Source: Rhodohalobacter sp. 614A (GTDB taxonomy: Bacteria > Bacteroidota > Rhodothermia > Balneolales > Balneolaceae). From it: a stretch of DNA of 64,000 nt. Position 1 is the first letter of the stretch; the number at the start of each line of letters is the position of its first letter. The notes below the pieces were generated by a model, which ran no database searches, was not told the origin of the DNA, and saw only the letters and a program-made list of their open reading frames with translations. Position numbers and translations under genes: made by a program. The stretch is taken from the NCBI RefSeq assembly GCF_021462415.1, contig NZ_JAKEDS010000001.1:62001-126000 (forward strand). Direction: 5' to 3'. Below, piece after piece: positions 3,260-31,668 of this stretch.

Positions 3260-4444
3260 TCACTTATTTTGATTTGTATACATTTCATCCAGCTCAGACA
3301 TTTTAAACCGTGTGCTTATGATAGACTGTTGTTCTTTGCCGGGTTTATATTTGATATAAGTAGTTGCCGCAATGGTACCGTCCGGTAATAATTCCATTCC
3401 GGGATACCCACAATCTCCACCCGCATAACTGTGAAGCAGTTTCACACGGTACTGACCACGTCGGCCTTTTTTGATATCTTCATACGTTCCCACCCATGCA
3501 CAAAAATGTCCTTTTGTATTGCTTGATGGTGCCATATCCCGGAAAGCAATCATCAATCGGCCGTCATTTGTGTATAGTCCTTTGTGTCTATCTCCGGTGA
3601 GTCCCCATGGAGTTTCTTCAGGAGTACTCCACGTTTTTCCTTCGTCGTTGCTGAACATCATCAGACTGAGGCCGCTTCGGGTATTATCCCGCATAATGCA
3701 GCATAATTCGGAGTGATCAGGTGATCGAAATACAAATGGTTCACAGGGATCTTTGTCTTCCACAACAGCAGTAATTACAGGCTCAGACCAGTTCATCCCT
3801 CCATCCTTACTGATACTTTTTAAAACCACTAATGGAGAATGATCGGCACCCTCTGGCCCGCGATGATACATTCCGAGATAACTTCCATCTTTCAGTTTAA
3901 CCACACTGCTAAATGTCATCACGCACTTAAATCCTAGCGGAGTCATTTCGCGCCAGGTTTTTCCACCGTCATCACTCATAATTCTGGGCATTTCAGGATG
4001 GGCGGAAAAAACCCAGAGCCGTTCCTGACCTTCAAAATCTACCATCCGATAAATACTCGGACAATTGGAATGCTTTTGGAAACCCTCAGGCAGTTGATCA
4101 TCCATTCTTGTCCAGGTCAGGCCGCTATCATTACTTCGTGCCATTGGGCCGGAAAATCCACCGTGACCTTTCGTCCACACTGCGAACATCGTTTTGCCAT
4201 CCGACATTAATAAGGTTGTTGGATGTCCCTGGTATATTTCCTCTGTTCCGGCAGCGATTACTACATGTCGATCAAATTCACCAGATATATCTATAATGGG
4301 TAATTTCGATTTATTCCGGGTGATTTTAGAAAATCCCAAGAAAGTGTCAGAGAAAGGAATACAGAATATACCTCCAACAAATGAGAAGGAAGTTTTTAAA
4401 AAAAATTTTCTTGAAAATGACGATTTACTCAAGTTTTCATTCAT
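3260..4444 (-). CDS. Sialidase-superfamily (Asp-box) six-bladed propeller, exported
   Basis: Four Asp boxes (S-x-D-x-G-x-x-W) lie near residues 104, 157, 212 and 265, the hallmark of the sialidase/neuraminidase fold. Arg59 (DRHVVIA), Arg252 (MRDNTRSG) and Arg302 (AFRDMA) are candidates for the carboxylate-binding triad. The FRIP/YRIP motif of classic GH33 enzymes is absent, so sialic-acid specificity is inferred from context. The N-terminus has SRKFFLK before a hydrophobic stretch, close to the twin-arginine consensus but with Arg-Lys, so export may be Tat or Sec. It is cotranscribed with the sialate esterase (0-base gap) and follows the GH-like propeller gene by 36 bases. Confidence 0.75.
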
Positions 4445-6152: not shown

Positions 6153-7340
6153 ATGACATCCACCTCTAATTCAAAATCAGATTACATGAGTCATCTTCAT
6201 CCCAAAGTGATTGTCTTTTCATTCATGTTTTCAGGATGCTTTTTTTCTTTTATTCCTCAGAATAGTTCAGCTCAGAATTCTTCCTTTATTAGCGGAGAAA
6301 TCGCCAATAGTACCCCTTCAATCGTCATACCATCTCCGAATGATTCCCGGATTGCACATCTTTCGTGGCCTAAAATAATTCGAACTGCTAAAGGAAATCT
6401 AGTAGTTGCATATAGTGCTGGTGTTGGCCATAACCGAGGTGGTTCAGGACCAGCCGTTTCTGTTTCCCGGGATAATGGTAAAACATTTACGCCACCCAAG
6501 TTGCTGGGATATTATCCTGAAGATGACGAGCGTTATAAAGACGCAGGAAATTTTGCTCTTGGAACTGCATCCGATGGAGCTATTATTCTCCTGGCAATGG
6601 CGTATAGTGGAAACGAAAATAATACTATTATTGGCTGGCGTTCAGAAGATGAAGGAAGCACATGGAAACCTGTGAATACCGATAAAATCGCCCAGAATAA
6701 AACAGGATCTATTTATGGAGAGATTTTAAATGTACCTAACGTTGGTTTAGTTGTTTTCGGTCATTACCGCCGCCCAAGTACACCTTCGCAAGGTATTTAT
6801 ATGTCCGTTTCCAAAGATAACGGGCAAACCTGGGGCTCCCCTCAAACGGTTACCGAGCAGGTATATGTAGAGCCGGCAGTTACATTTTCGAATGGCCGGT
6901 TTGTCGGATTGTTCAGGAACTCTGCAAGCGTAGGAAATAATAAATATGATTTGGCGGTATCGGATGATCTGGGAAAAACATGGACAATTTCACCGTCTGT
7001 TATCAAGATTCCTGAAGAGCTTGAAGGAGTGCAGCCCAGCCCTTTTATAACTGTGTCGAAAAAAAATCCGAACAAATTATTTGCCATTCAATCCATTCGG
7101 GGAGATATGGAGAATACCCGCGGGCGAATGTATTTGTGGTCGGCCGAGGTATATGAACTGGAATGGAAAAACCTTGGAATGATTGTGACCATAGACCGCC
7201 AGGCTGATCATCTGCATGATTGGTCGTACCCTTGGATGACATCCCTCAATGAAGATGAATGGCTGATGGTTTTCTATGCAGGAAAAGGTAACGGATCTAA
7301 CTCCATTTATGGATTGACGCTTCGTCCGGATTCACATTAA
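6153..7340 (+). CDS. Sialidase-superfamily (Asp-box) protein, secreted
   Basis: Four Asp boxes near residues 105, 164, 220 and 270 (SRDNGKTF, SEDEGSTW, SKDNGQTW, SDDLGKTW) mark a sialidase-type propeller. A hydrophobic segment ending in SAQ near residue 41 is a signal peptide; a second start at 6186 (residue 12) would give a more ordinary one. Candidate catalytic residues include the Arg in SRIAHLSWPKI and the Glu in YVEPAV. No FRIP motif is present. It forms a two-gene operon with the Kelch-symporter fusion 46 bases downstream, under the palindromic operator at 6074. Probably releases a terminal acidic sugar in the periplasm or at the surface; whether it cleaves sialic acid is not shown by sequence alone. 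Confidence 0.75.
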   Translation: MTSTSNSKSDYMSHLHPKVIVFSFMFSGCFFSFIPQNSSAQNSSFISGEIANSTPSIVIPSPNDSRIAHLSWPKIIRTAKGNLVVAYSAGVGHNRGGSGPAVSVSRDNGKTFTPPKLLGYYPEDDERYKDAGNFALGTASDGAIILLAMAYSGNENNTIIGWRSEDEGSTWKPVNTDKIAQNKTGSIYGEILNVPNVGLVVFGHYRRPSTPSQGIYMSVSKDNGQTWGSPQTVTEQVYVEPAVTFSNGRFVGLFRNSASVGNNKYDLAVSDDLGKTWTISPSVIKIPEELEGVQPSPFITVSKKNPNKLFAIQSIRGDMENTRGRMYLWSAEVYELEWKNLGMIVTIDRQADHLHDWSYPWMTSLNEDEWLMVFYAGKGNGSNSIYGLTLRPDSH

Positions 7341-11479: not shown

Positions 11480-12955
11480 TTATTGAACCCAATGCTCTGC
11501 ATTTTCAGTTGCCTGATCTTTTTCTCCGGTCGTAGGAGGTTCTTCCAACGGAAGTTGACCATACCTCTCAATCGCCTCAAGGTTTGGTCTTCCGATAGAT
11601 TGACCGAATTCAGCTCCCTGGCTATCAAGCTGATCATGGAGTTTTGAAATGGAAACTTCCCGGACAGATTTATTTCCTTTGATCGCAAGACCGGCAGCAG
11701 TTCCAGCGGCTTCTCCCTGGGCCATACAGATGGGAATCACCCTTGTTGAAGCTACCGCTTCATGGGTTGCTGACAGGCATTTTCCAGCCATCATCAGGCC
11801 ATCCACTCCTCTGGCAATTAAGCTTCTTAGCGGAATCGTGTAAGCCACTACATTTTTCGATTCAACCCAACTTCCGGATGGGCGATGAATATCAATATGA
11901 TATCCGCCCATTGCCACGGCATCATCAAAAACTTTTCCTTCAAATAGATCGTCCGCTTTGAGAACGTAATCACCCATAATTCTTCGGCTTTCCCTCACGC
12001 CCAGCATCGGAGCAATTTCAAGCAGATAACAATTTTTTCCGCCCGGAATATATTTTTGAAAAAAACTTACAATTTGTGGGATTTGGGAATAGACTTTACT
12101 GTAAGCCGTACTCAGGCTATTCACATCCGTGGGATCTAAACCCAATACACGTGTCATTACAATGCTAACCTGATCAGGTTGATGTACTTTTACTCCTACC
12201 ACTCTTGTTTGGGGAATATCAAGATCTCCGGCTTTTCTGGCTTTTTCCATTAATCCTGCAAACCCACCCAATACAAATACATCGGTCGTATTCAGATTGT
12301 TTTGGAGTTTCTTCCATAAATCCGGGAAAGGAGCGAACCACTCCCTGTAGTTCAATGATTTATCCTGGCACCCTGCCACGAATTCTTCTTTATTCAAGCC
12401 ACCTAACCTAAACACAAGCGTAGGAGCCTGAACAAGACCGTCTGCCGTTCTCCCTTTTTCCCACGCTACTCCACCTCTTGCAGCTACATCTCCATCGCCA
12501 CTGCAATCAATGGTTATATCTGCATAAATTTTTTGTCGGCCTGATTTATGTTCAACGACGATTCCAGCAATACGATCATTCTCACGGATAGTATCGACCA
12601 TATGTGTATGAAGCATCACATCCACACCGGCTTCTTCCGCCATTTGAATGGCAAGGATTTTCCAGGAATGGTTATCCACACTGACCAACGAACTGCACTT
12701 TGGATCAAATACATAGCCGGATGCAGCACTTTTTTTCTGCAACCGTGAAACGTACTCGCCGGGCAGCCCCTTTACCACCTGCCTGTATTCCCGGTCATGA
12801 AATCCCAGCCAAGGAAGTGTGGCAGAGATGCCTCCTAAAAATCCATTGTATTCCACCAATAACGTTTTCGCACCCTTTCTTGCCGCTGAAATGGCCGCTG
12901 AAACACCCGCCGCTCCAGCACCAACTACTAACACTTCTGTTTTTAAATCATTCAT
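11480..12955 (-). CDS. FAD-dependent oxidoreductase (FAD_oxidored family), copy A
   Basis: About 491 residues. The N-terminus carries the dinucleotide-binding motif EVLVVGAGAAGVSAAISAARKG followed by an acidic residue in LLVEYNGFLGG; an internal ITIDCSGDGDVAARGG motif and a C-terminal FAD-binding GLMMAGKCLSATHEA...MAQGEAAGTAAG are typical of the FAD_oxidored (glucose-inhibited-division-A-like) group. No signal peptide, so cytoplasmic. The ATG at 12955 is chosen over an upstream GTG at 12964. It follows the GH-like lipoprotein gene by 33 bases. The substrate is unknown; context suggests oxidation of a sugar or hydroxy acid produced from the imported glycan. A diverged paralogue is at 14607. 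Confidence 0.8.
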   Translation of the reverse strand: MNDLKTEVLVVGAGAAGVSAAISAARKGAKTLLVEYNGFLGGISATLPWLGFHDREYRQVVKGLPGEYVSRLQKKSAASGYVFDPKCSSLVSVDNHSWKILAIQMAEEAGVDVMLHTHMVDTIRENDRIAGIVVEHKSGRQKIYADITIDCSGDGDVAARGGVAWEKGRTADGLVQAPTLVFRLGGLNKEEFVAGCQDKSLNYREWFAPFPDLWKKLQNNLNTTDVFVLGGFAGLMEKARKAGDLDIPQTRVVGVKVHQPDQVSIVMTRVLGLDPTDVNSLSTAYSKVYSQIPQIVSFFQKYIPGGKNCYLLEIAPMLGVRESRRIMGDYVLKADDLFEGKVFDDAVAMGGYHIDIHRPSGSWVESKNVVAYTIPLRSLIARGVDGLMMAGKCLSATHEAVASTRVIPICMAQGEAAGTAAGLAIKGNKSVREVSISKLHDQLDSQGAEFGQSIGRPNLEAIERYGQLPLEEPPTTGEKDQATENAEHWVQ

Positions 12956-12988
12956 ATTTTTCACGATTTCTTATTTAAAACTTGTCAC

Positions 12989-14539
12989 TCACTTTTTTTC
13001 ACTTGCCAATTTCAGATTTCCGCTAACTGAATAAAGAGTAGCATTCGATAATTGGAATTTTAGTTGAATATTTGATCCTGTTAAGTCAGACAGAGTTTTA
13101 TCAGACCAATGAATTTCTTTATCAGTAACTTCTCCCCTCGTAATTGGCTCACTGTCATCAAATCCAAAGCCTTCAAATGGATTTCCGGATTCATCTAATA
13201 CTGCCACGTGTATTTCTCCTTCATCTTGAATATCGGCCGTGAGTTTTAGGTCGCTTCCTGTGATTTCAAAAGGGTTTGTTGTGATGAAACCCGGAGTATC
13301 ATTTTTTGAAGGTGTAAATCCTGCAAAGCGGTCCGACTCCAGTGTAGCCAGATTTAAAGTAGTTGTTCGGGTATCGGGAATATGTCTTTCCGGAAGACCG
13401 GCATAGTAGATTTTAATCTGATCATCTTTTACGATAAATGATGATGGATAGATCATGCCATAATCGTATCCGGTTGAATCTTCAGCGTTAGGAATAAAAG
13501 GTGTACCTGCATTAATTCGCTGCCAGTGATACGTGTCTGTACTCCAAGCCAGTTCCACGTGCACTTGGTCTCCATCACCATGCCTGAAGACACTTATTAA
13601 TCCGATATAATAACGATCTGCATATTGCTGAACAGGCATGGAATACGTTTGAGCTGTATCGGTTCCGCGAATAATTTCTACCGGATCAGACCAATTCAAA
13701 AAATCCTTGCTCTCCATTCGCAGCATCGTGCGGTTTGTACCGGGCCCCTCGCTATAGCCACGGGTAAATAGCACATATTTATTAAGTTCGGGTACCCAAA
13801 GAGCATTGTTGTGGGCGTCTCCATACAAGTTAAAAGGTTCTCCGTCTTTGATTTTTACAGGCTTCTCCCAGTGAATTCCATCCGGCGAAAAAGAGACTTC
13901 CAAATAATAGGGGAACCTCTGTCGGGAGACCATTTTATATTTCCGGCTTTCATCCTGGTAATTTGGATCTTTCAAAATTCCTATTTCATTCCCGCCGATA
14001 TTCACCAGGTTTGTCGGTTCTCCCTCATAGGTAAAAACATCCAGATCAGGACGTGTCCAATGGAGTCCATCCTCAGATGTCATGTATGCTTCTGCAATCC
14101 TCATCCCTTTCCACATACTGTCTTTGGGTTCAATTTTATCCACCCAATCATCTTCAACCCACACGTGGTACCATAATTTGTAGATTCCCTCCTCTTCATC
14201 ATATTTTGCATTTGGATAAAGGATAGAGGTTCGTTTTTCCCACTCGGGCACATCGAGGTCTGTCAACGTCGGTGGATGGTCAGAATCCCAGTTGGCATAC
14301 GACGGATGATTTGTCCACCGTACCAAAGGATTTCCTGCATACTTTTCTACCTGATGGACCAGCAATTCTGCATTCTGTGTTTCAGCTATAATCTCAGAAT
14401 CAAACATCAAAAACTTTGATGCTGGTGCAGACGCCTGTTTGCAGCTACTAAAAAGAAGGAGAGTAAGTAAACCAACCACGAGATTTACAACCGTGTAATA
14501 GCAGAATTCATTTTTTGAGTTCACGATCTGAGCATTCAT
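12989..14539 (-). CDS. Propeller-like putative glycoside hydrolase, lipoprotein
   Basis: Paralogue of the protein at 4481. A lipobox (LLLFSSC) ends the N-terminal hydrophobic segment, so it is probably lipid-anchored. Blade signatures: TSEDGLHWTRPDLDVF, SPDGIHWEKPVKI, NALWVPELNKYVLFTRGYS, STDTYHWQRINAGTPF, and a C-terminal beta domain (DIQDEGEIHVAVLDESGNPFEGFG). Both paralogues begin the mature part with F-x-D-S/P-x-I-A-E-[ST]-x-N-A-x-L. The start at 14539 is preferred: a TTG at 14569 would place the operator 14557-14571 inside the gene. Operator and 67-base gap suggest its own promoter. Activity not assigned; a hydrolase of a five-bladed fold is the working guess. Confidence 0.6.
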   Translation of the reverse strand: MNAQIVNSKNEFCYYTVVNLVVGLLTLLLFSSCKQASAPASKFLMFDSEIIAETQNAELLVHQVEKYAGNPLVRWTNHPSYANWDSDHPPTLTDLDVPEWEKRTSILYPNAKYDEEEGIYKLWYHVWVEDDWVDKIEPKDSMWKGMRIAEAYMTSEDGLHWTRPDLDVFTYEGEPTNLVNIGGNEIGILKDPNYQDESRKYKMVSRQRFPYYLEVSFSPDGIHWEKPVKIKDGEPFNLYGDAHNNALWVPELNKYVLFTRGYSEGPGTNRTMLRMESKDFLNWSDPVEIIRGTDTAQTYSMPVQQYADRYYIGLISVFRHGDGDQVHVELAWSTDTYHWQRINAGTPFIPNAEDSTGYDYGMIYPSSFIVKDDQIKIYYAGLPERHIPDTRTTTLNLATLESDRFAGFTPSKNDTPGFITTNPFEITGSDLKLTADIQDEGEIHVAVLDESGNPFEGFGFDDSEPITRGEVTDKEIHWSDKTLSDLTGSNIQLKFQLSNATLYSVSGNLKLASEKK

Positions 14540-14556
14540 ATTTTTATTAATATAAT

Positions 14557-14571
14557 ATTTGTATGACAAAT
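14557..14571. promoter_or_regulatory. GntR/FadR-type operator
   Basis: ATTTGT-ATG-ACAAAT, perfect 6-base arms with a 3-base centre, 18 bases upstream of the lipoprotein ATG at 14539 and downstream of the FAD enzyme stop at 14607. Same core as the sites at 6074, 24091 and 29503. Its position splits the minus-strand gene run into two transcription units. Confidence 0.7.
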
Positions 14572-14606
14572 TAAACAGCCAGACTTCTACTTAGAATAAT
14601 TTTATT

Positions 14607-16037
14607 TCAAACCTGATCTTTCCGGGGATAAATAGGGGGCAATTTTTCCCGGTCTACAATTGCATTGTTTTCTCTTAATTGATTACGAAGCAATTGGATA
14701 TTAATCGAGCCGAAAGAGACCGCACTCTCTATTACCTGCCGGCTTGCAAGACCTGCCGCCTCACCCATTGCCATGCATGGAGCCATCACCCGAACCGGCC
14801 CCAAAACCTGTCCTTCTACACTTACCGCCCTGCCGGGACAAATTAGGTTTTTGATAGGCTTCGGAATCATCATCCTGTATGGGAGCGGCGTACTCAACCC
14901 CTTTGTTACTTTGTGTTTGTAGCCTGTTACTTCATCATCGGCGAAAGGCTGCTCACTGGGTTTATCCGGATGAGGCAAATCCCATCCGTACATGCTGAAT
15001 CCGATACAATCATCAAACGATTTATCTGTCTGCAAATCTTCGACTGTCAAAATAAAATCGCCCACAATTCGCCGGGTCTCCCGGATACCCAATTGCGGGG
15101 CAATCGCTTTAATTTTTGCATCCTTGAAACCGGGAAAATATTTCTTAAAAATCCGCATTAACTCATGGATTTCCTTTCTACCTCGCTTCATCCCATCGGA
15201 TATAGACTCGCCATCCGTTCCGTCCACACCAATAAGGCGAATAGTATTGATATAGAATTCCCCTTTCTGAGGTAATTGTGTACAGATGAAAATATCATAT
15301 GGAAAATTCCATTCACCTTGGTCTTTAAGTTGATTGATCAGGTTTCGAAACTTTGGATCTCTCTCTTTTTCAATGCCTTGTGTAAGTTCTTCTTGGTCAA
15401 CATCATAGACATGGAATATCAGGGACGAAGGCGTCATTTTCCCGTCTTCTTTTCTTCCTTTGATGGTTTCGCAACCACTTCTGGCTGCCACATCAGCATT
15501 TCCGGTAGCATCAATCACAGCCCTGGCCGGAACAGCAATCAGGCCACTCCGATTAAATACCACTACATGTGTAATGATATTATTCTTCGTCATTACATCG
15601 ACGATTTGAGTGTGGAGTAAAACGTCTACACCGGCTTCTTCCATTTTTTCGTCTAAAAACATATCCACCGAAAATGGGTCCAGAGGAATGCCATGAATAA
15701 ACCAGTCATACCATCCAAACGGATGATATTTTTCATCATGGTTTAGAAGCGGAAGTAACGCATGATTTTTCGACGTAGCTTCTTCAGCTAATTCTTTAAA
15801 AATGCCGCCAACTACCCATTCACCCTCCTGGGTTCTGCCACCTAACCATTGAGAAACGAGTCCTGTAACGGCCATTCCGCCCAGCTGTCCCATGCTTTCA
15901 ATGAGCAATGTTTTTAAACCGGCTCGTCCGGCGGATAAAGCAGCTGCACATCCGGAGGGACCACCTCCGCATACTACAACATCATATTCCCCGAATTCTG
16001 AAATGTTAGATTTGTAACTGATTCGTTTGTTAGTCAT
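14607..16037 (-). CDS. FAD-dependent oxidoreductase (FAD_oxidored family), copy B
   Basis: About 476 residues. Motifs in order: YDVVVCGGGPSGCAAALSAGRAG (FAD dinucleotide fold), LLIESMGQLGGMAVTGLVSQWLGG, AVIDATGNADVAARSGCE near the middle, GIRETRRIVGDF, and the C-terminal LICPGRAVSVEGQ...APCMAMGEAAGLAS. No export signal, so cytoplasmic. The ATG at 16037 is used; a TTG at 16040 precedes it. Its gene starts 11 bases after the Kelch-symporter stop, so transporter and oxidase are very likely cotranscribed, which suggests that the imported compound is the substrate. Reaction unknown: oxidation of a sugar hydroxyl or of a sialic acid derivative are guesses. Confidence 0.8.
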   Translation of the reverse strand: MTNKRISYKSNISEFGEYDVVVCGGGPSGCAAALSAGRAGLKTLLIESMGQLGGMAVTGLVSQWLGGRTQEGEWVVGGIFKELAEEATSKNHALLPLLNHDEKYHPFGWYDWFIHGIPLDPFSVDMFLDEKMEEAGVDVLLHTQIVDVMTKNNIITHVVVFNRSGLIAVPARAVIDATGNADVAARSGCETIKGRKEDGKMTPSSLIFHVYDVDQEELTQGIEKERDPKFRNLINQLKDQGEWNFPYDIFICTQLPQKGEFYINTIRLIGVDGTDGESISDGMKRGRKEIHELMRIFKKYFPGFKDAKIKAIAPQLGIRETRRIVGDFILTVEDLQTDKSFDDCIGFSMYGWDLPHPDKPSEQPFADDEVTGYKHKVTKGLSTPLPYRMMIPKPIKNLICPGRAVSVEGQVLGPVRVMAPCMAMGEAAGLASRQVIESAVSFGSINIQLLRNQLRENNAIVDREKLPPIYPRKDQV

Positions 16038-16048
16038 CAATAACCTGT

Positions 16049-18640
16049 TTAACTATTTTCATTTTTTTGAGGCATTGTATAGATCGTCAGCCCGTCAAGT
16101 GATTTGCCTGATTTAAAAGGAAGACTTGCTACATAGCCGATCACCACACTGCTTATAATTCCAATCCCGCTATACAGGAAAAAGTGGATGGGCGTATAAT
16201 TCCGCACATACAACAGAATCAACGCACTTCCAATTGCCCCGATTATTGCACCCGTTCCATTTGCCCTGATACTGAAAATTCCCAAAATAAACATGCCGGT
16301 CATGGCTCCTGTAAAAAGACTAGCGAACTCAAGAATCACATCCCAAATAGAAGTAATCTCAAAAAATGTCATCAACACAGCCGTAATGGTAGACATCAAC
16401 CCTAAACCAAGAGTTAAGAACCGGGAAAGAGAAAGTTTTTTTGCTTCGGTATTCAATGCTTTTGTGCCTTGTAAAAAATCGCGCATAAGAACGGTGGTGC
16501 TGCTGTGAATCGAACTGTCTACGCTGGACATGGAAGCTGCAAATATTCCGGCTATCAACAAGCCGGTTATTCCGGGTGGTAAATTCTGAGCTATGAAAAA
16601 GGGTACAATTCCGTCGTTTGATAATGAAGGATCAATCAACCCGGGGTTTACCTTATAAAAAACGAAAATTGCCGTTCCTAACCCGAATACCAAAACCGCC
16701 CACGGAATATTTGCAGCTACACTGGCCCACAAAGCTTTTGCAGTTTCCTTTTCATCCCGTGTAGTGAGGTAACGCTGCACACTGGACTGATCGGAAACAA
16801 GAAGCCCTGTTCGGTTAAAGATGTTTCCGATAATCACAATCCAGAAGACCGGGGCAACATAACTCCAGTCCATGCTCCCCAAGCTAAACTTTTGACTCTC
16901 GTTAGCTATTCTTATGAATTCACCGAAGCCACCATCTATACTTAAAAGAATGTATATGATACAGACAATAATCCCACCAAAGAGTACAATGGCCTGTAAA
17001 ACATGGGTCCAAATAACAGCATGCATTCCTCCCAAAGCAGTGTATGCAGTAGCAAGAATGCCTATCACAATAATACAAACTCTTGCATCGATACCGGTAA
17101 CGGCCGACAGCGCAATGGCGGGCAAATATATGATGACCCCCATTCTTCCAATCAACTGAAACAACAAATAGAGTCCGGCAATAAATTTTCGAATGATGTT
17201 GTTAAACCGTTTTTCGAGGTACTCGTATGCACTGACTACATTTAACCGTCTGTAAAAAGGTACAAATGCATAAATCACAATGGGCACCACGATAACCCAG
17301 GTAAAAGCGCCAGCAAAATAACTCCAGTTTGTGGCAAAGGCTTTGGCCGGAACAGACATAAAACCAATCGCACTGGCCTGAGTAGCCATCAGACTGAGAC
17401 CTGCTGCCCAAAATGGCATTTTTCGTCCACCCAAAAAATAATCATCTGTGGTTTTATTGTAGTATGAGAAATAGTATCCCATGACGATAATAAGTACCAG
17501 ATAAATCACAATAACGGCATAATCCAATCCCTTTAAATGACTTTTTGTGAGGGCCGGCACAGAAGCCGTATAAATTTTGGTCGTTCTTACACTCGGATTT
17601 ATCTCTCCTCCGGGAATGACTATTCTGTCCCGAAAATAGATAGCAGAGGTTCCCACGAGCCCGGTAGAAATTTCGCCGGCTTCTCTCCATGTATCCGTAA
17701 TAGTATTATAACTCAGAACGGTGTTCGTAAATTTATAGTCGTAACCGAGTTCCAGTACACGGCCTGTATCATAACCGTCTGATCCGCTGATTACAAGAAT
17801 TTGTGAACTACCAACCGGCAGAACGGATGCCACGTGTGCGGGTCTGGGGAGGGCGGTTAGTTTTTTCCAGGAGTTATCCATGCCACTTTTGGCAGGATCG
17901 TACATGTAAGCGTCAGTAAGATAGTCTGTGTCAGATTTACCACTAAACAGAAAAAGACATTCATACTCACCATTGAACTGTTTTACCAGCGAAGCTCCGA
18001 ATCTCTCCTTCCCCGGCCAGGGCGTTAATTCCTGCCATTCATTATTGCCGCCAAGATTAAGTTTCCAGAAATTTTGTAATGGTACTTCCTGATTTTTGAT
18101 GCTGGCTGTTCCGCCGGCAATGTAGATACTATTGTTCAGGATAGAAGCCGAAGCGTATGATATTTCCCTGGGAAGAGGTGGTAATTCCCGGCTTATCGAA
18201 ATGCTCTTGTCTAACTCATTCCATTTCAGGTACAGGACGTCTTTCAACTTTTCTGATTCATTTTCTCCCCCTAAAAGAATTAACCCATCGTTTACAGAAA
18301 CAGTTGCTCCATGTGCTGCAGGATACGGTAATGTTCCTGCATCTTGCCAATGAAATGATTCATTCTCCTCCATTAAAAGATAAATGGAATCATGATATTT
18401 TTTTGATCCTCCCTCCCATACCGGCTGATCAAAATTAGAACCTCCGGCAACGATAACCATATCGCCCACGGTTCCAATAAAGGCTCCCGATAACCCAAGG
18501 CTGTCAGGTAAATCGGGCAGACTGGAATTTTCGAACGTAATCCAGCTTTTTTTTGCACTTTTTTGATAAGCCAAAACAGTATTTGTACAACAGCTAATAA
18601 TTACAAAAAACAATATGATGCGAACTACCTTCAAACTCAA
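16049..18640 (-). CDS. Kelch mutarotase-like domain fused to sodium/solute symporter (copy 2)
   Basis: 863 residues. Signal peptide (VVRIILFFVIISCC... ending VLA), Kelch propeller to about 365 with VIVAGGSNFDQPVWEGGSKKYHDSIY and ILLGGENESEK, close to the cyclically permuted sialic acid mutarotases, then an SSS transporter from about 372 (YAVIVIYLVLIIVMGYYF, DDYFLGGRKMPFWAAGLSLMATQASA, sodium-site helix AASMSSVDSSIHSS). The most upstream credible start is a TTG at 18640; no in-frame ATG lies nearby. Followed after 11 bases by a FAD oxidoreductase. No strong operator lies upstream, only the terminator of the SusCD operon and about 115 bases of AT-rich DNA. Inferred role as for the other two copies: periplasmic anomer conversion coupled to Na+-driven uptake. 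Confidence 0.85.
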   Translation of the reverse strand: MSLKVVRIILFFVIISCCTNTVLAYQKSAKKSWITFENSSLPDLPDSLGLSGAFIGTVGDMVIVAGGSNFDQPVWEGGSKKYHDSIYLLMEENESFHWQDAGTLPYPAAHGATVSVNDGLILLGGENESEKLKDVLYLKWNELDKSISISRELPPLPREISYASASILNNSIYIAGGTASIKNQEVPLQNFWKLNLGGNNEWQELTPWPGKERFGASLVKQFNGEYECLFLFSGKSDTDYLTDAYMYDPAKSGMDNSWKKLTALPRPAHVASVLPVGSSQILVISGSDGYDTGRVLELGYDYKFTNTVLSYNTITDTWREAGEISTGLVGTSAIYFRDRIVIPGGEINPSVRTTKIYTASVPALTKSHLKGLDYAVIVIYLVLIIVMGYYFSYYNKTTDDYFLGGRKMPFWAAGLSLMATQASAIGFMSVPAKAFATNWSYFAGAFTWVIVVPIVIYAFVPFYRRLNVVSAYEYLEKRFNNIIRKFIAGLYLLFQLIGRMGVIIYLPAIALSAVTGIDARVCIIVIGILATAYTALGGMHAVIWTHVLQAIVLFGGIIVCIIYILLSIDGGFGEFIRIANESQKFSLGSMDWSYVAPVFWIVIIGNIFNRTGLLVSDQSSVQRYLTTRDEKETAKALWASVAANIPWAVLVFGLGTAIFVFYKVNPGLIDPSLSNDGIVPFFIAQNLPPGITGLLIAGIFAASMSSVDSSIHSSTTVLMRDFLQGTKALNTEAKKLSLSRFLTLGLGLMSTITAVLMTFFEITSIWDVILEFASLFTGAMTGMFILGIFSIRANGTGAIIGAIGSALILLYVRNYTPIHFFLYSGIGIISSVVIGYVASLPFKSGKSLDGLTIYTMPQKNENS

Positions 18641-19527: not shown

Positions 19528-20931
19528 TTAGTAGTATGAATTTTGATCCAAATTTGGATTTTGGGTCAATTCTTCAACATGGATTGGCCAAAGAATCTGT
19601 TCTTCAGACAAAATCTCGGATAGCTCTATTGCTTTTCCATTTCTTACCAAGTCAAAGAAATAATGCCCTTCACCCACCAATTCAATGAGTCGTTCATGCA
19701 GAATTATGTCAGTCGCTTCGGCTTTGCTTGCGGCGGAAATAGCTGCTAATCCGGCTCTTTCTCTTATTTCATTCACCAAAGATACTGCACCTGCCGTGTT
19801 CCCGGTTTCATTCAGTGCTTCTGCTTTTAACAACAGGATATCTGAGTATCTGAACAAAGGGATATTTGAATCACTATTGCTGTATCCTTCACTATCGAAT
19901 GTTTTTCCGGGAAACTTAACGAGGAACGGATGTTGAACAAGATCTTCCGGACGTTTTTCTCTGTAATAAACGTCGGTTCGTTCATCTTCAGGATATGCAG
20001 CTACATGATCGTGCACAATCTGGTCGAATTGCACTCCAGCTCTTAAACTGCTTGAGTATGGCTCTACAAAAAAGTAAGATGCAATCGAATTGGTTTGCTG
20101 ATACGAATTATCATAAATCATCGCGAAAATATATTCTGGTGTATCTTCTTCACTGAATATCTCCGCGAAGCTGTCAACCAATTCATATTCAGGGCTATTT
20201 ATGATATAGTTAGCAGATTCAATGACTCTGTTGAAGTACTCTTCACCACCATTTTCCCGTTGTGCAATCCATAAAGATACATGGGTATTTAAAGCATGAG
20301 CTGCTCCAACGGTTGCCCGTCCTCTGGTTTCCGTATTTGTAGAATAGCTCTCTGGCAAATCACGGATAGCTATATCAATATCCTCCTCAATTACATCAAA
20401 AACTGCGGAAATAGGTGAGCGGGATAATTGCAGTTCCTGGGCCACAGACGTATATGCTTTGGTTGGCAACGGTACATCTCCCCAAATCCTGACAAGCCAA
20501 AAATAACTTAAAGCCCTCAAAAAATGAGCTTCAGCAATTATTTGACTTCGTTTGACTTCTGTAATGCCCTCGGTAATCCCCGGAACCACATCTATAATCT
20601 GATTGGCTCCATTAATTACCGCATAGAATGGACCCCAGTCTGCCTGAGACATCGTTGGCTGCAATTTGCTTTCGTCTATCGTTTCCAGCGCTGTACCATC
20701 AAAGGTAACTCCGTCACCCCGGATTTCGCCGTATACAAAGAATCGATTCCCACCTCCAAGTGCATTCAGCAACCGGTTGTAGACACCAAAAATACCTGCT
20801 TCTGCATCTTCTCCATTTTCGAAAGAAATTTCCGGAGTCAATTCACTTACCGGTGATGTATTCAGGATATCATCACACGAAACGAATAAAAGCAGAAAAA
20901 TGAGTGATAATCCTTTTAAATAAGTTTTCAT
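19528..20931 (-). CDS. SusD/RagB-family glycan-binding lipoprotein
   Basis: 467 residues, lipobox LLFVSC (Cys19) followed by DDILNTSPVSELTP, the usual mature N-terminus of the family. Helical tetratricopeptide-like core (AEAHFLRALSYFWLVRIWGDVPLPTKAYTS), and the C-terminal SusD block (LLLKAEALNETGNTAGAVSLVNEIRERAGL...ILHERLIELVGEGHYFFDLVRNGKA) are all present, so it looks intact. It sits 10 bases after SusC, the normal order, and forms the lid of the outer-membrane transporter. By context it captures a sialylated glycan fragment or free sialic acid. It is not especially close to the two other SusD proteins of the window (43662, 51534). Confidence 0.93.
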   Translation of the reverse strand: MKTYLKGLSLIFLLLFVSCDDILNTSPVSELTPEISFENGEDAEAGIFGVYNRLLNALGGGNRFFVYGEIRGDGVTFDGTALETIDESKLQPTMSQADWGPFYAVINGANQIIDVVPGITEGITEVKRSQIIAEAHFLRALSYFWLVRIWGDVPLPTKAYTSVAQELQLSRSPISAVFDVIEEDIDIAIRDLPESYSTNTETRGRATVGAAHALNTHVSLWIAQRENGGEEYFNRVIESANYIINSPEYELVDSFAEIFSEEDTPEYIFAMIYDNSYQQTNSIASYFFVEPYSSSLRAGVQFDQIVHDHVAAYPEDERTDVYYREKRPEDLVQHPFLVKFPGKTFDSEGYSNSDSNIPLFRYSDILLLKAEALNETGNTAGAVSLVNEIRERAGLAAISAASKAEATDIILHERLIELVGEGHYFFDLVRNGKAIELSEILSEEQILWPIHVEELTQNPNLDQNSYY

Positions 20932-20941
20932 AGTATATTTT

Positions 20942-23900
20942 TTAGAAGTTAATATCGATTCCAGCGGTTACAGATGTAGAAATAGGATACTGATAACCAG
21001 ATACCTCAGGGTCGTAACTTCCCCTCCAGTTTGTAAGCGTCCATAAATTATGTCCCGTTACAAAAATCTGTGCATTTCTTACAGAGAGTTTATCTGTTAA
21101 ACTTCCGGGAAAGTTATAGGATAAAGTGATGGTTTTGAGACGGAGGAAAGAAGCGTCGTCTATCCATCGGGATGTTCCTCCCCGGTCATTATCTACACTG
21201 AAATTCCGGGCTCTCGCATTAATGGGTACATCGGTAACATCTCCGGGTTGTTGCCATCTGTTCTCATACGCATACAGAGTAACTGCTTGGTAAAGCCCGT
21301 TCCAACTCTCCAGATCTTCGCGGAGCACATTATATTTTTCATTTCCGTAGGAGAAGTTGAAGAAAACATCCAAGCTGAGATTTTTCCAGGCAAAACTATT
21401 GGTAAAACCACCTATAAAATCAGGTTGTTCATTCCCAATGATTTGGCGGTCGTCTGAATCTATAATTCCGTCTGAATTCAAATCTTTCAGAATGATATCC
21501 CCTGCCTGAAATTCAGGACCATTTGCCTGGTTTCTCAGTTTAGTTCCTGGTTCGGGACCAGCCGGCACATCATCGTCAGTAGAATAAACTCCTTCAAATA
21601 CGTATCCATAATAAGTGCCAATGGACTCTCCTTCCCGATAAACCTCATTCCCAAAAAAGACATCTTCTCCATTGGGTAATGAAAGAATTTTATTGCGGTT
21701 AAAAGAGATATTAAAATTGGTTGTCCAGCTTAGATCACCAGCCAGGTTTCGTGTGGTAAGATCAAACTCAAATCCTTTGTTTTCAATTTCTCCCAAATTC
21801 ACTAACACAGAAGAAAAACCAGTACTACTTGGCAGTTCTTTATTAAAAAGAAGATCTTTGGTGTTCTTATTGTAATAATCCACTGAAAAGTTTAACCGAT
21901 CTTCCAGCATGCTAAGATCCACACCTAAATCAAACTGACGGGTACTTTCCCAAGCTAATTCCTGGTTGGGCATATCCACAGATCGAATACCACCTCTGCC
22001 TAAATAATCGGCACCGGTAACAATCACTCCCTGTGAAACAAAATTTTCGATTCCCTCCTGGTTCCCTGTTAGTCCGTAACTTGCACGAACCATTAAATTG
22101 TTAACCGGCTGGATATTTTCCATGAAATCTTCTTCAGAAATTCTCCATCCCACAGAAACGGATGGAAAATTACCAAACCGGTTATTCGAACCAAATTTGG
22201 ATGATCCGTCCCGCCGGAAAGTCGCAGTCAGGTGATATCGCGAATCATAGTCGTATAACAATCTGGAAAAATAAGAAACCATAGCCCAGCTGGTTGTTGC
22301 TGATGATGCATTTTCCAATATAGATCCGGCATTGACAGTAGGAATTTTGTCAGAAGCAGCCTGGCTGGCTTCGGCTACCATAAACTCACTGGTGTTTTTC
22401 TGTTGGCTGAATCCCAGAAGCCCTGTAAGGTTGTGTCCCTCCGCAATGGTAGTTTTATAAGTGAGAGTGTTTTCGTTAATCCAGCCGAAATCCCTGCCAG
22501 AATATGCACTTGACCTTCTCTCCGAGCCAACAGGAGCTACTGTGCTTGGGAAAAATATACTCTCCCGAATCTGCATATTATCAATCGCAAAGTTACTCCG
22601 AAGTTCAAGACCTTCAATAAATTCATATTGAGCGTATACGTTCCCAATCAATCGGTCCCGTTTATTATCCTGAACCGGTTCCGTTAAATTAATTAATGGT
22701 TCATTTTTCCATGTTCTTCCCTGGTCATCTACTGGTGGCTGGAAGGAAGGTTGATTGGTCCAGTTTGCCCAGTTACCGTTTCCATTTCCGGATTGCCGAA
22801 TCATGTCGTGCTGAGAATTCGCATAGGACAGATTGCTTCCGAGTGTAAACTTATCAGATCGATATTCTAAATTCGATCGCCCGGTTATCCTGCTGAAACC
22901 ACTATTTGCAACAATCCCTTCCTGATCTGTGGCACCAACACTTAAAGAATATCGCAACTGGTCTGAACCACCTGAAATAGATAAGTTTGCATTACTCATC
23001 GGGGCTGTATCAAACATTCTATCCTGCCAGTGTGTGTTTGCACTATACATGGTATTCAAAGTATCGGTCATCCAATCTCGTTGAAGCTGCTCATAATTTC
23101 CGAAGTAGTTGTAATAAGCTTCCGTCAAAAGTTCTCTTTTCTGATTTCCGTTTACTACTTCTATGTATCGGGTAATTCTCTGAACTCCTGAATAGGCTGA
23201 AAAATTAATTTGTGGTCTGCTGCCCTGAACTCCTCTTTTTGTGGTAATCAACACAACCCCACCACTGGCCCTAGAACCATAAATAGAAGCAGCTGAAGCA
23301 TCTTTCAACACCTCAATAGATTCGATATCATTTGGGTTAACATCGGCCAACGCATTCAGGCTACCGCCAATTTTTAATCCGGAGGCATCCCCACTTTTAA
23401 TGGGAACTCCATCCACTACATAAAGCGGATCATTTCCGGCCTGTATGGAGCTAAGCCCCCTGATGTTAACGGACATTCCACCGCCAGGTTCACCTGTTGT
23501 CTGAACTACCTGGACTCCAGAGGTTTTTCCCAGCAAATACCCGTCCACACTTGTTACCGGTTGATTCTCAATTTCACGGGAACTTATCGATGAAATTGAG
23601 CCGGTTACCTGCGAACGTTCCTGTTGGCCGTAACCAATTACAACCAATTCATCTAATGTACCCGTAGACATTGTCAGGGTTATATCAATACTTCTTCTTC
23701 CATCAACCGGAACCTGTTGGGTTTCATATCCAACAAATGAGAATATCAAAATAGCATCCCCACTTACATTAACCTCATACAGGCCATCCAGATCTGTGGT
23801 TGTGCCATGCGAGGTTCCTTCTACCATTACTGTAGCACCAGGTAGTGGCTCACCATTATCATCGGTAACACGGCCTGTTACAGTAATATCTTGCTGGGCA

Positions 23901-24013
23901 TAAGCGGTGCCCATGAAAAGCAATACGATCAGAAATGAGCTGAGAAAAGAAAAGTATCGAGCTTGTAAAAATTTCTTCCGATTGTTCGCTCCAATGTAGT
24001 AACTCATGTTCAT
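20942..24013 (-). CDS. SusC/RagA-family TonB-dependent outer-membrane transporter
   Basis: 1023 residues. Signal peptide ending AYAQ, carboxypeptidase-regulatory-like domain (VTGRVTDDNGEPLPGATVMVEGTS, about 45-115), a TonB box-like DELVVIGYG, plug domain with VQVVQTTGEPGGGMSVNIRGLSS and SIEVLKDASAASIYGSRASGGVVLITTK, then the long beta-barrel ending in an aromatic residue (GIDINF). Works with the adjacent SusD to move glycan across the outer membrane using the proton-motive force through TonB. The ATG at 24013 is followed by another at 24007; either may be used. Upstream lie a GntR-type operator (24091) and an AAGCGCTT element (24057), so two regulators may act. Confidence 0.93.
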   Translation of the reverse strand: MNMSYYIGANNRKKFLQARYFSFLSSFLIVLLFMGTAYAQQDITVTGRVTDDNGEPLPGATVMVEGTSHGTTTDLDGLYEVNVSGDAILIFSFVGYETQQVPVDGRRSIDITLTMSTGTLDELVVIGYGQQERSQVTGSISSISSREIENQPVTSVDGYLLGKTSGVQVVQTTGEPGGGMSVNIRGLSSIQAGNDPLYVVDGVPIKSGDASGLKIGGSLNALADVNPNDIESIEVLKDASAASIYGSRASGGVVLITTKRGVQGSRPQINFSAYSGVQRITRYIEVVNGNQKRELLTEAYYNYFGNYEQLQRDWMTDTLNTMYSANTHWQDRMFDTAPMSNANLSISGGSDQLRYSLSVGATDQEGIVANSGFSRITGRSNLEYRSDKFTLGSNLSYANSQHDMIRQSGNGNGNWANWTNQPSFQPPVDDQGRTWKNEPLINLTEPVQDNKRDRLIGNVYAQYEFIEGLELRSNFAIDNMQIRESIFFPSTVAPVGSERRSSAYSGRDFGWINENTLTYKTTIAEGHNLTGLLGFSQQKNTSEFMVAEASQAASDKIPTVNAGSILENASSATTSWAMVSYFSRLLYDYDSRYHLTATFRRDGSSKFGSNNRFGNFPSVSVGWRISEEDFMENIQPVNNLMVRASYGLTGNQEGIENFVSQGVIVTGADYLGRGGIRSVDMPNQELAWESTRQFDLGVDLSMLEDRLNFSVDYYNKNTKDLLFNKELPSSTGFSSVLVNLGEIENKGFEFDLTTRNLAGDLSWTTNFNISFNRNKILSLPNGEDVFFGNEVYREGESIGTYYGYVFEGVYSTDDDVPAGPEPGTKLRNQANGPEFQAGDIILKDLNSDGIIDSDDRQIIGNEQPDFIGGFTNSFAWKNLSLDVFFNFSYGNEKYNVLREDLESWNGLYQAVTLYAYENRWQQPGDVTDVPINARARNFSVDNDRGGTSRWIDDASFLRLKTITLSYNFPGSLTDKLSVRNAQIFVTGHNLWTLTNWRGSYDPEVSGYQYPISTSVTAGIDINF

Positions 24014-24270: not shown

Positions 24271-24785
24271 TTATCCTGGGTTCTCTCTGCCAAAATTATC
24301 TTCAACTCTAACAATGTCATTTTCGTCAGATGGATTTTGAGGATCCTGATGCTGCCATATTTCGGCTACCACAGTCCAATCATACAGCCCAATCAGCCTG
24401 TGCCGCTGGCCAAGTGCAATGCTTGTTTTATCTCCGGAAAATAATTCAACCATTGGTGTCTGCTCATTAGTATTACTTATAATCAACCCAATGGAGCCTT
24501 CAACGATTTTCCAGTGTTCTGAACGCCGGTGATGATACTGCCAAGAGAGCCGTTTACCAGGTTCAACGATTAATATTTTGGGACTGTATGAGAGATTTGC
24601 ATCATCAGTCACAAAATTTGTATTGGGGAAAAAGTTGTTGATAAATACCGAAAGTGAAGAGTTGTCGATCACAAAAACCCACCCCAGGGACGGGTTTTAT
24701 CTTTCTTCACTATTTTGATATTCCTTTTTTTCAGATCTTCTTCTACCCAATCAAAAATTTTAGATTTATTTGAACTACTTGACAT
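24271..24785 (-). pseudogene. Mannose-6-phosphate isomerase-type cupin, split by a -1 frameshift
   Basis: The main frame, opening with a GTG at 24672, encodes 133 residues of a cupin like the C-terminal domain of ManC/PMI II and proteins often labelled phosphoheptose isomerase: PGKRLSWQYHHRRSEHWKIVEG, GQRHRLIG, VAEIWQHQDPQNPSDENDIVRVEDNFGR. Upstream, a second frame from the ATG at 24785 encodes 38 residues ending KDKTRPWGGFL then TGA. One extra A in the run of five A at 24673-24677 would join them as RPWGGFFVIDNSS, a continuous protein of about 171 residues. So this is either a recent loss or a sequencing error. It lies between NanA and SusC. The cupin may epimerise or bind a sugar; its job here is unknown. 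Confidence 0.7.
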
Positions 24786-24862: not shown

Positions 24863-25768
24863 TCAATTTTCAAAAAATCCGGCTTCCAGCAGATCATTTT
24901 TAAGGGATAAACTCTCTTCTTCAGAAATCTTTTTAAATGGTAACCGGCATGGCCCGCAGTCCAACCCTATCAATTTCATAATCTCTTTTCCCCCACGAAC
25001 ACCCCCTCCGTATTTGATAATTATCTCGACAATTTTTACAGAGAATTGCTGCTGTTTTCTCACTTTAGCCATATTGCCCTCCTTAAAAGCTGCCATCAAT
25101 TCGGTATAAACCGGTGCCATGTAATTATACGTGCTGCCTACTGCAGATTGAACACCCATTCCCAGTCCACACATTAATATTTCGTCTGACCCGAATAAAA
25201 GTTCGAAACGCCCATCACTAACTCTGATCGATTGCTGCAAGTCCATCATATCGGAATGAGTATATTTTACCCCTGCAAAATTTGGAATAATCTTCCCTGC
25301 AATTTCTAAAATCTTGGAGACCGGAATATTCACACCGGTCATAGAAGGAATGTGATAGTAGTAAAATGGCAGGTCTGAAGCCGCCTCTGCAATGGGTTGT
25401 AAGAAATAGAGAAGTTCAGAAGCTGTCTGAGGTTTAAAAAAGAAAGGAGCCATCGCTGCTGTGGCATCTGATCCAATCCCGGAAGCATATTTTGCCAATT
25501 CTGCACTTTCCGACTGGCACACTCCACCTACATGGGCAATTATCTTGAGTGCACTTTCTGAACATTTTGCCCATTCTTTCATGACTGCTTTCTTTTCCTC
25601 AAAACTTAATGAAGCCCCTTCTCCGGTAGTTCCGCAGACAAAAGCACCACTCACCCCACTTTTTACTAACCAATCTCCATACTTTGGAATCACTTCGTAA
25701 TTGATAGCTCCTGCCTGATCCATGGGTGTAAAAGGTGCCGCTATTAAGCCGTTTAAAAAATTTTCCAT
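24863..25768 (-). CDS. nanA: N-acetylneuraminate lyase (DHDPS/NAL superfamily)
   Basis: Cleaves N-acetylneuraminate to N-acetylmannosamine and pyruvate in the cytoplasm. Class I aldolase barrel, 301 residues, with GTTGEGASL (46-54) binding the pyruvate carboxylate, Tyr138 in FYYYHIPSMTGV and Schiff-base Lys168 in FAGVKYTHSD. The Arg that marks dihydrodipicolinate synthase after the YNxPS motif is replaced by Met-Thr, and the C-terminal GLDCGPCRLPFKKISEEE block is typical of NAL rather than DapA. It stands 77 bases upstream of the broken cupin gene and downstream of the regulator and Kelch-symporter, giving the locus its sialic acid assignment. No ManNAc epimerase or kinase is in the window. 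Confidence 0.88.
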   Translation of the reverse strand: MENFLNGLIAAPFTPMDQAGAINYEVIPKYGDWLVKSGVSGAFVCGTTGEGASLSFEEKKAVMKEWAKCSESALKIIAHVGGVCQSESAELAKYASGIGSDATAAMAPFFFKPQTASELLYFLQPIAEAASDLPFYYYHIPSMTGVNIPVSKILEIAGKIIPNFAGVKYTHSDMMDLQQSIRVSDGRFELLFGSDEILMCGLGMGVQSAVGSTYNYMAPVYTELMAAFKEGNMAKVRKQQQFSVKIVEIIIKYGGGVRGGKEIMKLIGLDCGPCRLPFKKISEEESLSLKNDLLEAGFFEN

Positions 25769-28741: not shown

Positions 28742-29494
28742 CTAACCCGTTGCTTTGTTTTTCTTTAGATTTTCGCCGTTTTTGCTTGCTTTTAAAAACT
28801 TGCTATATGGAGCAAAGTGTTGTTCCATTCCTTTCCGGAGTCCCTCTTTATCTTTGTTTTTAATATATGACAACAAATCCTGATGGGTTATCAGAGCATC
28901 TTTTTGAAGTAACTCTCTATTAATAGGCTCAAAAAAGTCTTTGAACTTATCCCTGATAAATAATGATACCGGATAGATAATCTCCTGGAATTGCATGATG
29001 CTTTCATTTTCCGTGATTTCATATAATTTGGAATGAAATGCATTTTCACTTTCAGCTTTATAGAAGTTGAGCTCGTAGCTACCCCCTTCTTCCACAATTT
29101 TTTCGAGATCAGCAATATATTTATCGTTTACATTGTCGATAATGCTACTGCAAATCCCTAGTTCAAGAGCTACCCTAAATCCCAGAAGATTAATAAGAGA
29201 CTGTTCCCCCAAAATCATTGGATCGGTTACGCGTTGCAGTCCTCCGAACATATGGGGTTCACTTAGAACCATCCCTCTTCGTGTTCTTGATTCAACCACG
29301 CCAAGCATTCTCAATCGGCTCAAAGCCTCTCTTAATACACTTCGTGAGACGCCAAGCGCCTCCGATAATTCATTTTCATTGGGCACCGAATCGCCCACCT
29401 TCATATTATTTTGGGCGATGTATTCGAATAGTTTTTTCTCTACCTGGTCAACCAAAGTGACCGCCTGGTTTTTGATTTTTAAATCCATAGACAT
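28742..29494 (-). CDS. FadR-subfamily GntR transcriptional regulator
   Basis: 250 residues. Winged helix at about 12-80 (KLFEYIAQNNMKVGDSVPNENELSEALGVSRSVLREALSRL, then VVESRTRRGMVL) and an all-helical FCD effector domain at about 95-230 (LINLLGFRVALELGIC, AFHSKLYEITEN, HQDLLSYIKNKDKEGLRKGMEQHF). It heads the operon with Kelch-symporter copy 3. An operator of the FadR-type geometry lies 9 bases upstream of its start, indicating autoregulation, and equal sites lie upstream of three other units. Inferred to be the functional counterpart of NanR, with a sialic acid or a derivative as inducer. An in-frame ATG at 29488 is an alternative start. Confidence 0.88.
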   Translation of the reverse strand: MSMDLKIKNQAVTLVDQVEKKLFEYIAQNNMKVGDSVPNENELSEALGVSRSVLREALSRLRMLGVVESRTRRGMVLSEPHMFGGLQRVTDPMILGEQSLINLLGFRVALELGICSSIIDNVNDKYIADLEKIVEEGGSYELNFYKAESENAFHSKLYEITENESIMQFQEIIYPVSLFIRDKFKDFFEPINRELLQKDALITHQDLLSYIKNKDKEGLRKGMEQHFAPYSKFLKASKNGENLKKNKATG

Positions 29495-31616: not shown

Positions 31617-31668
31617 AGTATTATTCCTTTCGTTGCTATTTATATTTCTTTATCCGGCCCCTGAAAAA

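Follow-up and report, generated by a model that had tools for sequence, protein, structure and literature searches.

Bacterial catabolism of sialic acids, as laid out in extracts of a review (PMC10017367), runs through an aldolase, a kinase and an epimerase, to which a single nicotinamide adenine dinucleotide (NAD)-dependent branch for anhydro-sialic acid is added. The conversion of 2,7-anhydro-N-acetylneuraminic acid (2,7-anhydro-Neu5Ac) to Neu5Ac by RgNanOx and by E. coli YjhC (NanY) is redox-neutral according to extracts of two papers (PMC10017367, PMC7535918): in NanOx, a tightly bound redox cofactor frees the anhydro-sialic acid without net oxidation (PMC7535918). The words 'FAD' and 'flavin' occur 0 times in the review extracts, where no FAD step is mentioned (PMC10017367), in agreement with a preliminary description of the DNA studied here, which held that classic sialic acid catabolism has none. 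A flavoenzyme found again and again in clusters of this kind, whether from gut, rumen or environmental bacteria, would imply that the known routes overlook a step or a substrate. Here we describe such an enzyme, FAD2, encoded in a 64,000-nucleotide stretch of Rhodohalobacter sp. 614A (positions 62,001 to 126,000 of contig NZ_JAKEDS010000001.1; hereafter the window), from a genome of 4.69 Mb that is 99.3% complete. The association of the FAD2 family with sialate-type clusters is real and apparently undescribed; support for a mechanism is moderate. The family, small and itself seemingly undescribed, suggests an extra redox step outside the textbook sialic acid pathways, and our literature search, of incomplete coverage, found no paper linking an FAD oxidoreductase with sialate catabolism.

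FAD2 lies in a minus-strand run that descends from the gene at 28742-29494 to position 11480 and holds, in this order, a GntR-type regulator, a Kelch-SSS fusion transporter, an N-acetylneuraminate lyase (NAL)-type aldolase, a small cupin, SusC, SusD, a fasciclin-like gene, a second Kelch-SSS, FAD2, a hydrolase-like lipoprotein and FAD1 (Table 1; the GntR, SusC/D and fasciclin-like names were assigned by eye). Past FAD1 come sialidase-like genes, a third Kelch-SSS and a SASA-family acetylesterase. The preliminary description had seen two diverged FAD_oxidored proteins flanking a lipoprotein hydrolase, and 11 bases between one of them and a Kelch-symporter; both statements hold. FAD1 (368 bits) and FAD2 (310 bits) cover PF12831 in full (length 416, cut-off 27 bits) and are 30% identical over 469 columns; neither is a chance ORF. 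For the intervening gene, 12989-14569, Pfam gives no match; its start resembles that of a lipoprotein by eye. FAD1 starts with GTG. FAD2 could start with TTG at 16040 or ATG at 16037, and an 11-base gap to the Kelch-SSS gene, which stops at 16049, fits the ATG. Full-length PF12831 matches number six in the host genome, FAD1 and FAD2 among them.

How widespread is FAD2? We surveyed 84,980 species, each represented by one genome, with a pattern scan, which reaches only genes matching short peptide patterns, and kept 80 of 101 confirmed candidate loci. Orthologues of FAD2 are found at 22 loci besides the window, at 50-72% identity, after which the next tier of the 80 drops to 35% or less (L063, a 47% fragment at a contig edge, is not counted). 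Rigid motifs common to these 22 include WLGGR, GxRExRR, a YGWDLP-like segment and RVMAPCMAMG, and W65-R69, Y351-D354 and R417-C422 of FAD2 are invariant. The orthologues are spread over several phyla. The family is rare: it occurs in 1 of 394 genomes of our host phylum sample, namely the host itself, and in 3 of 294 of the Planctomycetota sample, G401 included. The other 58 loci (L023-L080) are mostly FAD1-like, in that 57 contain an open reading frame (ORF) whose best window match is FAD1. This sister subfamily has a median identity of 37% to FAD1 and 33% to FAD2, and in a tree with five of its 58 sequences it falls apart from the FAD2 set. FAD1 and FAD2 belong to different subfamilies and are not a pair. 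In fact, when considered as possible evidence for a pair, the PF12831 partners near FAD2 in L002 and L010 proved not to be FAD1 orthologues; they group on the tree with the host paralogue C7 and with the sister subfamily, and the relatives of FAD1 that we found lie outside FAD2 loci. Elsewhere in the host genome, three PF12831 genes stand in tandem between SusCD-like pairs (L082:9231-14717), far from FAD2 on the tree.

We compared the 22 FAD2 neighbourhoods with the 58 FAD1-like loci, treated by the same ORF method, as a control (ORFs of GC-rich contigs were called by length and may thus be wrong). A gene of the type of BNR_3260, a sialidase-fold protein of the window, is present in 8/22 FAD2 loci versus 0/58 control loci (Fisher p 1e-5), and in 9/22 when tblastn is used (L001, L002, L006, L007, L008, L009, L012, L014, L022). 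DHDPS relatives of the window's lyase follow the same trend (5/22 versus 0/58); four are NAL-type (L002, L007, L018, L020; again 0/58), and the fifth, in L001, has 26% identity and none of the NAL motifs. Kelch-SSS transporters of the 16049 type occur in 5/22 (L001, L003, L007, L009, L022) versus 0/58, the one in L022 matching the 16049 and 26006 types about equally. Across 101 ORFs flanking FAD2, a Pfam tally, from which 33 of 134 mostly long or antisense ORFs were dropped, counts BNR_2 15 times, SSF 5, FAD_oxidored 4, DHDPS 3 and NANM 3. On the scale of whole genomes, BNR_3260 relatives are found in 13 of the 21 other FAD2 bearers and a DHDPS-family lyase relative in all 21 (E at most 1e-20), with an identity of at least 34% in 18.

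Gene order recurs as well. The lyase adjoins FAD2 in L018 and L020 and a BNR_3260-type gene in L118, L152 and L153, and RIP-motif sialidase genes lie directly upstream of FAD2 in L002 and L006. The window shares the order lyase-SusC-SusD-KelchSSS-FAD2 with an uncultured Bacteroidales (L176), Parabacteroides (L156 and L002) has lyase-SusC-SusD-BNR-BNR-FAD2, and lyase-SusC-SusD-...-FAD2 is an order that recurs in Bacteroidales. The preliminary description had tied both flavoproteins to a sialic acid locus and looked to co-occurrence with the lyase and Kelch-SSS fusions. For FAD2 the tie stands: lyase, sialidase-fold, NanM-like Kelch-SSS and SusCD genes recur beside it in distant phyla, each in a minority of loci. 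For FAD1 it is not supported: the nearest relative found lies in a cluster without lyase or BNR match over the 19.5 kb fetched. Other neighbours were seen too. A family of 370-394 amino acids (aa), whose similarity to corrinoid methyltransferases (MtaA-like) and URO-D is weak and below cut-off (L003:11480-12598, L006:6878-8062, L171:944-2089, L172:7239-8390), directly adjoins FAD2 at two loci or the NAL-type lyase at two; it has no match in the window, and may point to a missing step, such as a methyl transfer. L003:7307-8077, also near FAD2, is a phytanoyl-CoA dioxygenase (PhyH) family gene.

The family appears to have switched compartments repeatedly. Neither FAD1 nor FAD2 of the window has a signal peptide (by eye, for FAD2 also by script), so that 'cytoplasmic', as both were first called, suits the window copies. 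Across the family, however, the step would not always be cytoplasmic: the 21 members with intact N-termini, the window included (those of L004 and L014 are missing), comprise seven twin-arginine translocation (Tat)-like, one Sec-like and 13 unsigned proteins, as assigned by a regular expression and hydrophobicity rather than a trained predictor. On the FAD2 tree, this export label requires six changes, at least four of them forced by well-supported branches, and it clusters no more strongly than in shuffles. The 16049-type Kelch-SSS accompanies only unsigned FAD2 (6/13 versus 0/8 exported; p 0.046, a borderline value from a hand tally that ignores kinship), and any SSS gene does likewise (7/13 versus 0/8; p 0.018, kinship ignored). 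Two near contrasts agree with this, namely Parabacteroides L002 (Tat, with MFS and no such carrier in the locus) versus Tannerella L001 and L007, and Verrucomicrobia L006 (Tat) versus Kiritimatiellae L009. Two planctomycete-sample copies, L150 (unsigned) and L151 (Tat-like), were assigned by eye and kept outside the tally; their ORF lists contain no SSS match, and including both gives 6/14 versus 0/9. That the reaction could take place in the cytoplasm or outside it, and gains a carrier in the former case, suggests that its substrate is a small sugar already released and that the enzyme does not need soluble nicotinamide cofactors.

The lyase of the window has a DHDPS fold, and its best PDB matches are NALs. 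It contains the NAL active-site motifs (tyrosine, Schiff-base lysine, GxDE and GSTYN) and scores 186 bits against the NCBIfam equivalog NF003164, below the cut-off of 281. The NAL motif does not fix the substrate, because NPL-type lyases also cleave 2-keto-3-deoxynononic acid (Kdn) and 2-keto-3-deoxyoctonic acid (Kdo), the latter being a substrate of human NPL according to extracts of PMC13220900. N-acetylmannosamine (ManNAc) epimerases belong to the E. coli and B. fragilis sialic acid routes in the review extracts (PMC10017367); the host genome has 0 matches to NanE (PF04131) and 0 to AGE-type epimerases (PF07221), and NanE is above cut-off in 1 of the 21 other FAD2 genomes. In Parabacteroides G395, the FAD2 cluster has its lyase and a second lyase, directly followed by an AGE gene, lies 2.96 Mb away; there, the FAD2 cluster probably serves another purpose and looks like an addition to the usual operon, not a part of it. 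Plain Neu5Ac that passes through ManNAc is an improbable substrate. Thus, of the undescribed branch of sialic acid metabolism first proposed for this locus, the FAD2 association survives and does not appear in the review extracts; the sialic acid part was overstated, in that the substrate may not be ordinary sialic acid, given the host without NanE or AGE and the wider range of NPL-type lyases.

How could these components work together? We give a probability of about 0.45 to the explanation that FAD2 is a stand-alone FAD enzyme performing a redox step on a free, or anhydro or otherwise modified, nonulosonic acid, between its release at the surface and its cleavage by the lyase. Sialidase-fold hydrolases would release a nonulosonic acid of the sialic acid, Kdn or Kdo type at the cell surface, FAD2 would act on the free acid or its anhydro/modified form, and the NAL-type lyase would cleave afterwards. 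In some bacteria, Tat-exported FAD2 would perform the step in the periplasm; in others, the host included, a dedicated NanM-SSS carrier would first import the substrate and FAD2 would act in the cytoplasm. The proposal builds on computed results, namely the FAD2 family, its gene association, compartment switching with a borderline transporter match and a host with no ManNAc epimerase-family match; from these we infer what class of substrate FAD2 acts on and in which order the steps follow. More weakly, by analogy with NAD-dependent NanOx, FAD2 catalysis may be redox-neutral, a transient oxidation unmasking or epimerising the acid, because FAD2 occurs in both compartments, its bearers include lineages known as anaerobes (Tannerella, Parabacteroides and rumen Kiritimatiellae), and no electron-acceptor family is among the neighbour families listed. 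A FAD version of NanOx chemistry would explain both the absence of a partner protein among those families and the occurrence in anaerobes. We can even envision, at long odds, that FAD2 founds a flavin-dependent, nicotinamide-free family that rearranges an anhydro- or otherwise masked nonulosonic acid without net redox change, on either side of the inner membrane, opening a route free of ManNAc epimerase (e.g. for Kdn) in several phyla including anaerobes.

Several results weigh against this explanation. Within the fetched stretch, 13/22 FAD2 loci have no BNR_3260-type gene and 17/22 no lyase relative, several FAD2 contigs ending close to FAD2, and Kelch-SSS transporters of any type occur in 6/22 versus 5/58 loci, so that the contrast is clean for the 16049 type only. 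Without L021, whose upstream region lies off the contig, the transporter p values become 0.051 (16049 type) and 0.044 (any SSS). AGE-family genes, members of a broad family, occur in 19 of the 21 other FAD2 genomes, and the missing-epimerase argument therefore rests mainly on the host genome. BNR_3260 and FAD2 lie 10 kb apart in the window. Moreover, close relatives of BNR_3260 (57-70%; L158-L161) stand in FAD2-bearing genomes with no FAD2 orthologue or lyase in the 12-19 kb fetched, so a BNR_3260 protein need not work with FAD2. Structure gives limited guidance: the predicted FAD2 model (predicted local distance difference test, pLDDT, 84) resembles a FixC/geranylgeranyl-reductase-like flavoprotein, with fold matches 7koe_C (Z 20.4, root-mean-square deviation (rmsd) 4.4, 314 aligned) and 3oz2 (Z 19.6, rmsd 3.9, 303 aligned). 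Among the fold matches listed there are many distant flavoproteins and no close solved relative, and the highest Foldseek TM-scores listed are 0.45 (by query) and 0.52 (by target). When FAD1, FAD2 and an FAD2 profile were searched against PDB sequences, the matches listed covered mainly the FAD-binding N-terminus.

The greatest difficulty for a straightforward sialic acid reading is that the BNR_3260 family may not cut sialosides at all. BNR_3260 has a sialidase fold (8t24: Z 30.2, rmsd 2.6, 298 aligned; 5hx0, of unknown function: Z 32.0, rmsd 3.0, 312 aligned) and four Asp boxes. In a sequence alignment with four RIP proteins, however, 10 of 10 members of its family lack both the RIP arginine and the Asp acid/base segment; other residues are not safely placed, since the repeats shift the alignment. 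Nine BNR_2 matches fall in six genes of the host genome, four of them in the window; the RIP motif is absent from all six and from window gene 42223, which is below cut-off, and the canonical motif is found in 0/5 sialidase-like window proteins tested. BNR_3260 may either cut an unusual ulosonate linkage or be no sialidase.

FAD2 and the BNR_3260-type protein could then act on a non-ulosonic sugar of a surface polysaccharide, with the lyase and NanM-SSS as mere neighbours in a mixed glycan locus. The loss of the carboxylate-binding RIP arginine and of the Asp segment agrees with this, as does the fold, which is common to GH93 arabinanases; BNR_3260 relatives (39-45% identity) occur in 14/388 other genomes of the host phylum sample, the fetched flanks of six of those 14 hold no FAD2 or lyase match by tblastn, and FucI, a pentulose kinase and sulfatase-like genes are likewise found in the window. 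The adjacency of the lyase to FAD2 (L018, L020) and to BNR_3260-type genes (L118, L152, L153), synteny across three genomes and the RIP sialidases next to FAD2 in L002 and L006 speak against it, and we regard this alternative as possible but doubtful. A net dehydrogenase, delivering electrons of a sugar acid to respiration or an unknown acceptor and yielding an oxo-acid that exits the sialate route instead of feeding the lyase, seems unlikely: no cytochrome, ferredoxin or electron-transfer flavoprotein (ETF) appears among the 25 most frequent of the 78 families that the 101 flanking ORFs represent, and the presumed anaerobes among the bearers argue against it as well, even though the fold neighbours include the electron-transfer/reductase flavoproteins FixC and flavocytochrome c and Tat export of a single flavoprotein would be compatible with periplasmic electron transfer.

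Kdo itself could be the substrate, an NPL-type lyase giving D-arabinose for use via FucI (1076 bits) and the FGGY pentulose kinase (704 bits) at 29802-33342. Cleavage of Kdo by human NPL (extracts of PMC13220900) would suit this, and NanE/AGE would not be needed. We consider it very unlikely, as neither FucI nor FGGY recurs at the 22 FAD2 loci and both belong to a second module, which has an aldolase, an SSS and sulfatase-like genes of its own. For the same lack of recurrence near FAD2, a link to L-fucose or D-arabinose through FucI/FGGY was demoted to a weak rival. This second glycan module, 29802-56133, comprises the L-fucose isomerase, the FGGY pentulose kinase, another DHDPS-family aldolase, an SSS symporter and, by eye, four sulfatase-like genes and two SusCD pairs; its pair of FucI and pentulose kinase would fit either L-fucose or D-arabinose.

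What, then, does FAD1 do? The nearest relative found, at 66% identity in Kiritimatiellae G414, shares its cluster with a 4481/12989-family hydrolase, a plain SSS and an AraC-type regulator; the 19.5 kb fetched contain neither a lyase nor a BNR match. In G403, a relative at 41% identity directly adjoins a hydrolase of the same family, just as FAD1 adjoins hydrolase 12989-14569 in the window. FAD1 and the 12989 hydrolase are probably a separate sugar-oxidising unit, and a link of FAD1 to sialic acid is not supported. In the 58 sister loci, of Bacteroidota, the neighbours, with functions assigned by eye, are MFS (48/58), exported phosphatase-like (47/58), an FGGY kinase cluster (37/58), hydroxyacid-dehydrogenase-like (36/58) and a DeoR-like regulator (34/58), which looks like another sugar or polyol pathway.

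Table 1. Features of the FAD2 cluster and its surroundings, in positions of the window.
Feature	Position	Strand	Evidence
FAD2, PF12831 flavoenzyme, without signal peptide here	14607..16040	-	310 bits; 22 orthologues aligned; model pLDDT 84
Kelch (NanM-like)-SSS fusion transporter, immediately upstream of FAD2	16049..18640	-	Profile and tblastn
Sialidase-fold (BNR) protein BNR_3260	3260..4444	-	Fold match, alignment; family is the commonest FAD2 neighbour elsewhere
N-acetylneuraminate-lyase-type aldolase (NPL/NAL subfamily), active-site motifs kept	24863..25768	-	Profile, PDB matches, motifs
Kelch (NanM)-SSS fusion transporter, adjoins lyase in other genomes	26006..28717	-	Profile, neighbourhoods
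GntR-type regulator, first gene of the run, recurs beside lyase	28742..29494	-	Family by eye; relatives 30-55% identical
SusD-like gene	19528..20931	-	By eye; syntenic in L007/L176 and L002
SusC-like TonB receptor	20942..24013	-	By eye; syntenic in L007/L176 and L002
Lipoprotein-like hydrolase	12989..14569	-	Weak profile similarity to beta-mannoside phosphorylases and GH32; best E 1.1e-6 (9fj8)
FAD1, PF12831 flavoenzyme of another subfamily	11480..12964	-	Profile, tree, neighbourhood
Small cupin beside lyase, like the mannose-6-phosphate-isomerase domain of GMP_PMI	24271..24672	-	43 bits, far below the cut-off of 373

Further observations concern the transporters and the cupin. The window has three Kelch-SSS genes (7387, 16049 and 26006). 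The NANM cut-off of 45 bits is passed by 16049 (108) and 26006 (174), which also carry an SSF domain, and 7387 stays below it (32). This divergent third copy (7387-9903) and a sialidase-like neighbour (6153-7340) lie on the strand opposite to the main cluster. The small cupin (24271-24672), of 133 aa, has no relative in the fetched loci; a mannose-handling cupin would fit if the lyase yields mannose from Kdn.

PF12831 is named in a single paper of the literature we searched, and a defined subfamily with a clear pathway context makes functional assignment testable. Seen from known systems, the sister loci share PF12831 with FAD2 but, unlike FAD2, have no BNR or lyase match (0/58) and keep MFS, FGGY kinase, DeoR-like and phosphatase-like neighbours. 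BNR_3260 resembles GH33 sialidases in its fold and four Asp boxes and departs from them in the RIP arginine and Asp acid/base segment missing in the ten family members aligned. NAL-type lyase, SusCD-type uptake, GntR-like and Kelch genes in Bacteroidota recall the B. fragilis nan pathway (NanL, RokA and NanE-II, the last of the AGE family); unlike it, the host has no AGE-family match and has a FAD2 gene added, and in G395 the AGE-linked lyase sits at another locus. The cluster is perhaps best compared with the NanOx/YjhC system, where an oxidoreductase likewise sits between an anhydro-sialic acid transporter and the lyase. In contrast to NanOx, FAD2 is a PF12831 flavoprotein with no Gfo/Idh/MocA Pfam match and looks exported in some bacteria, but it may still work like NanOx.

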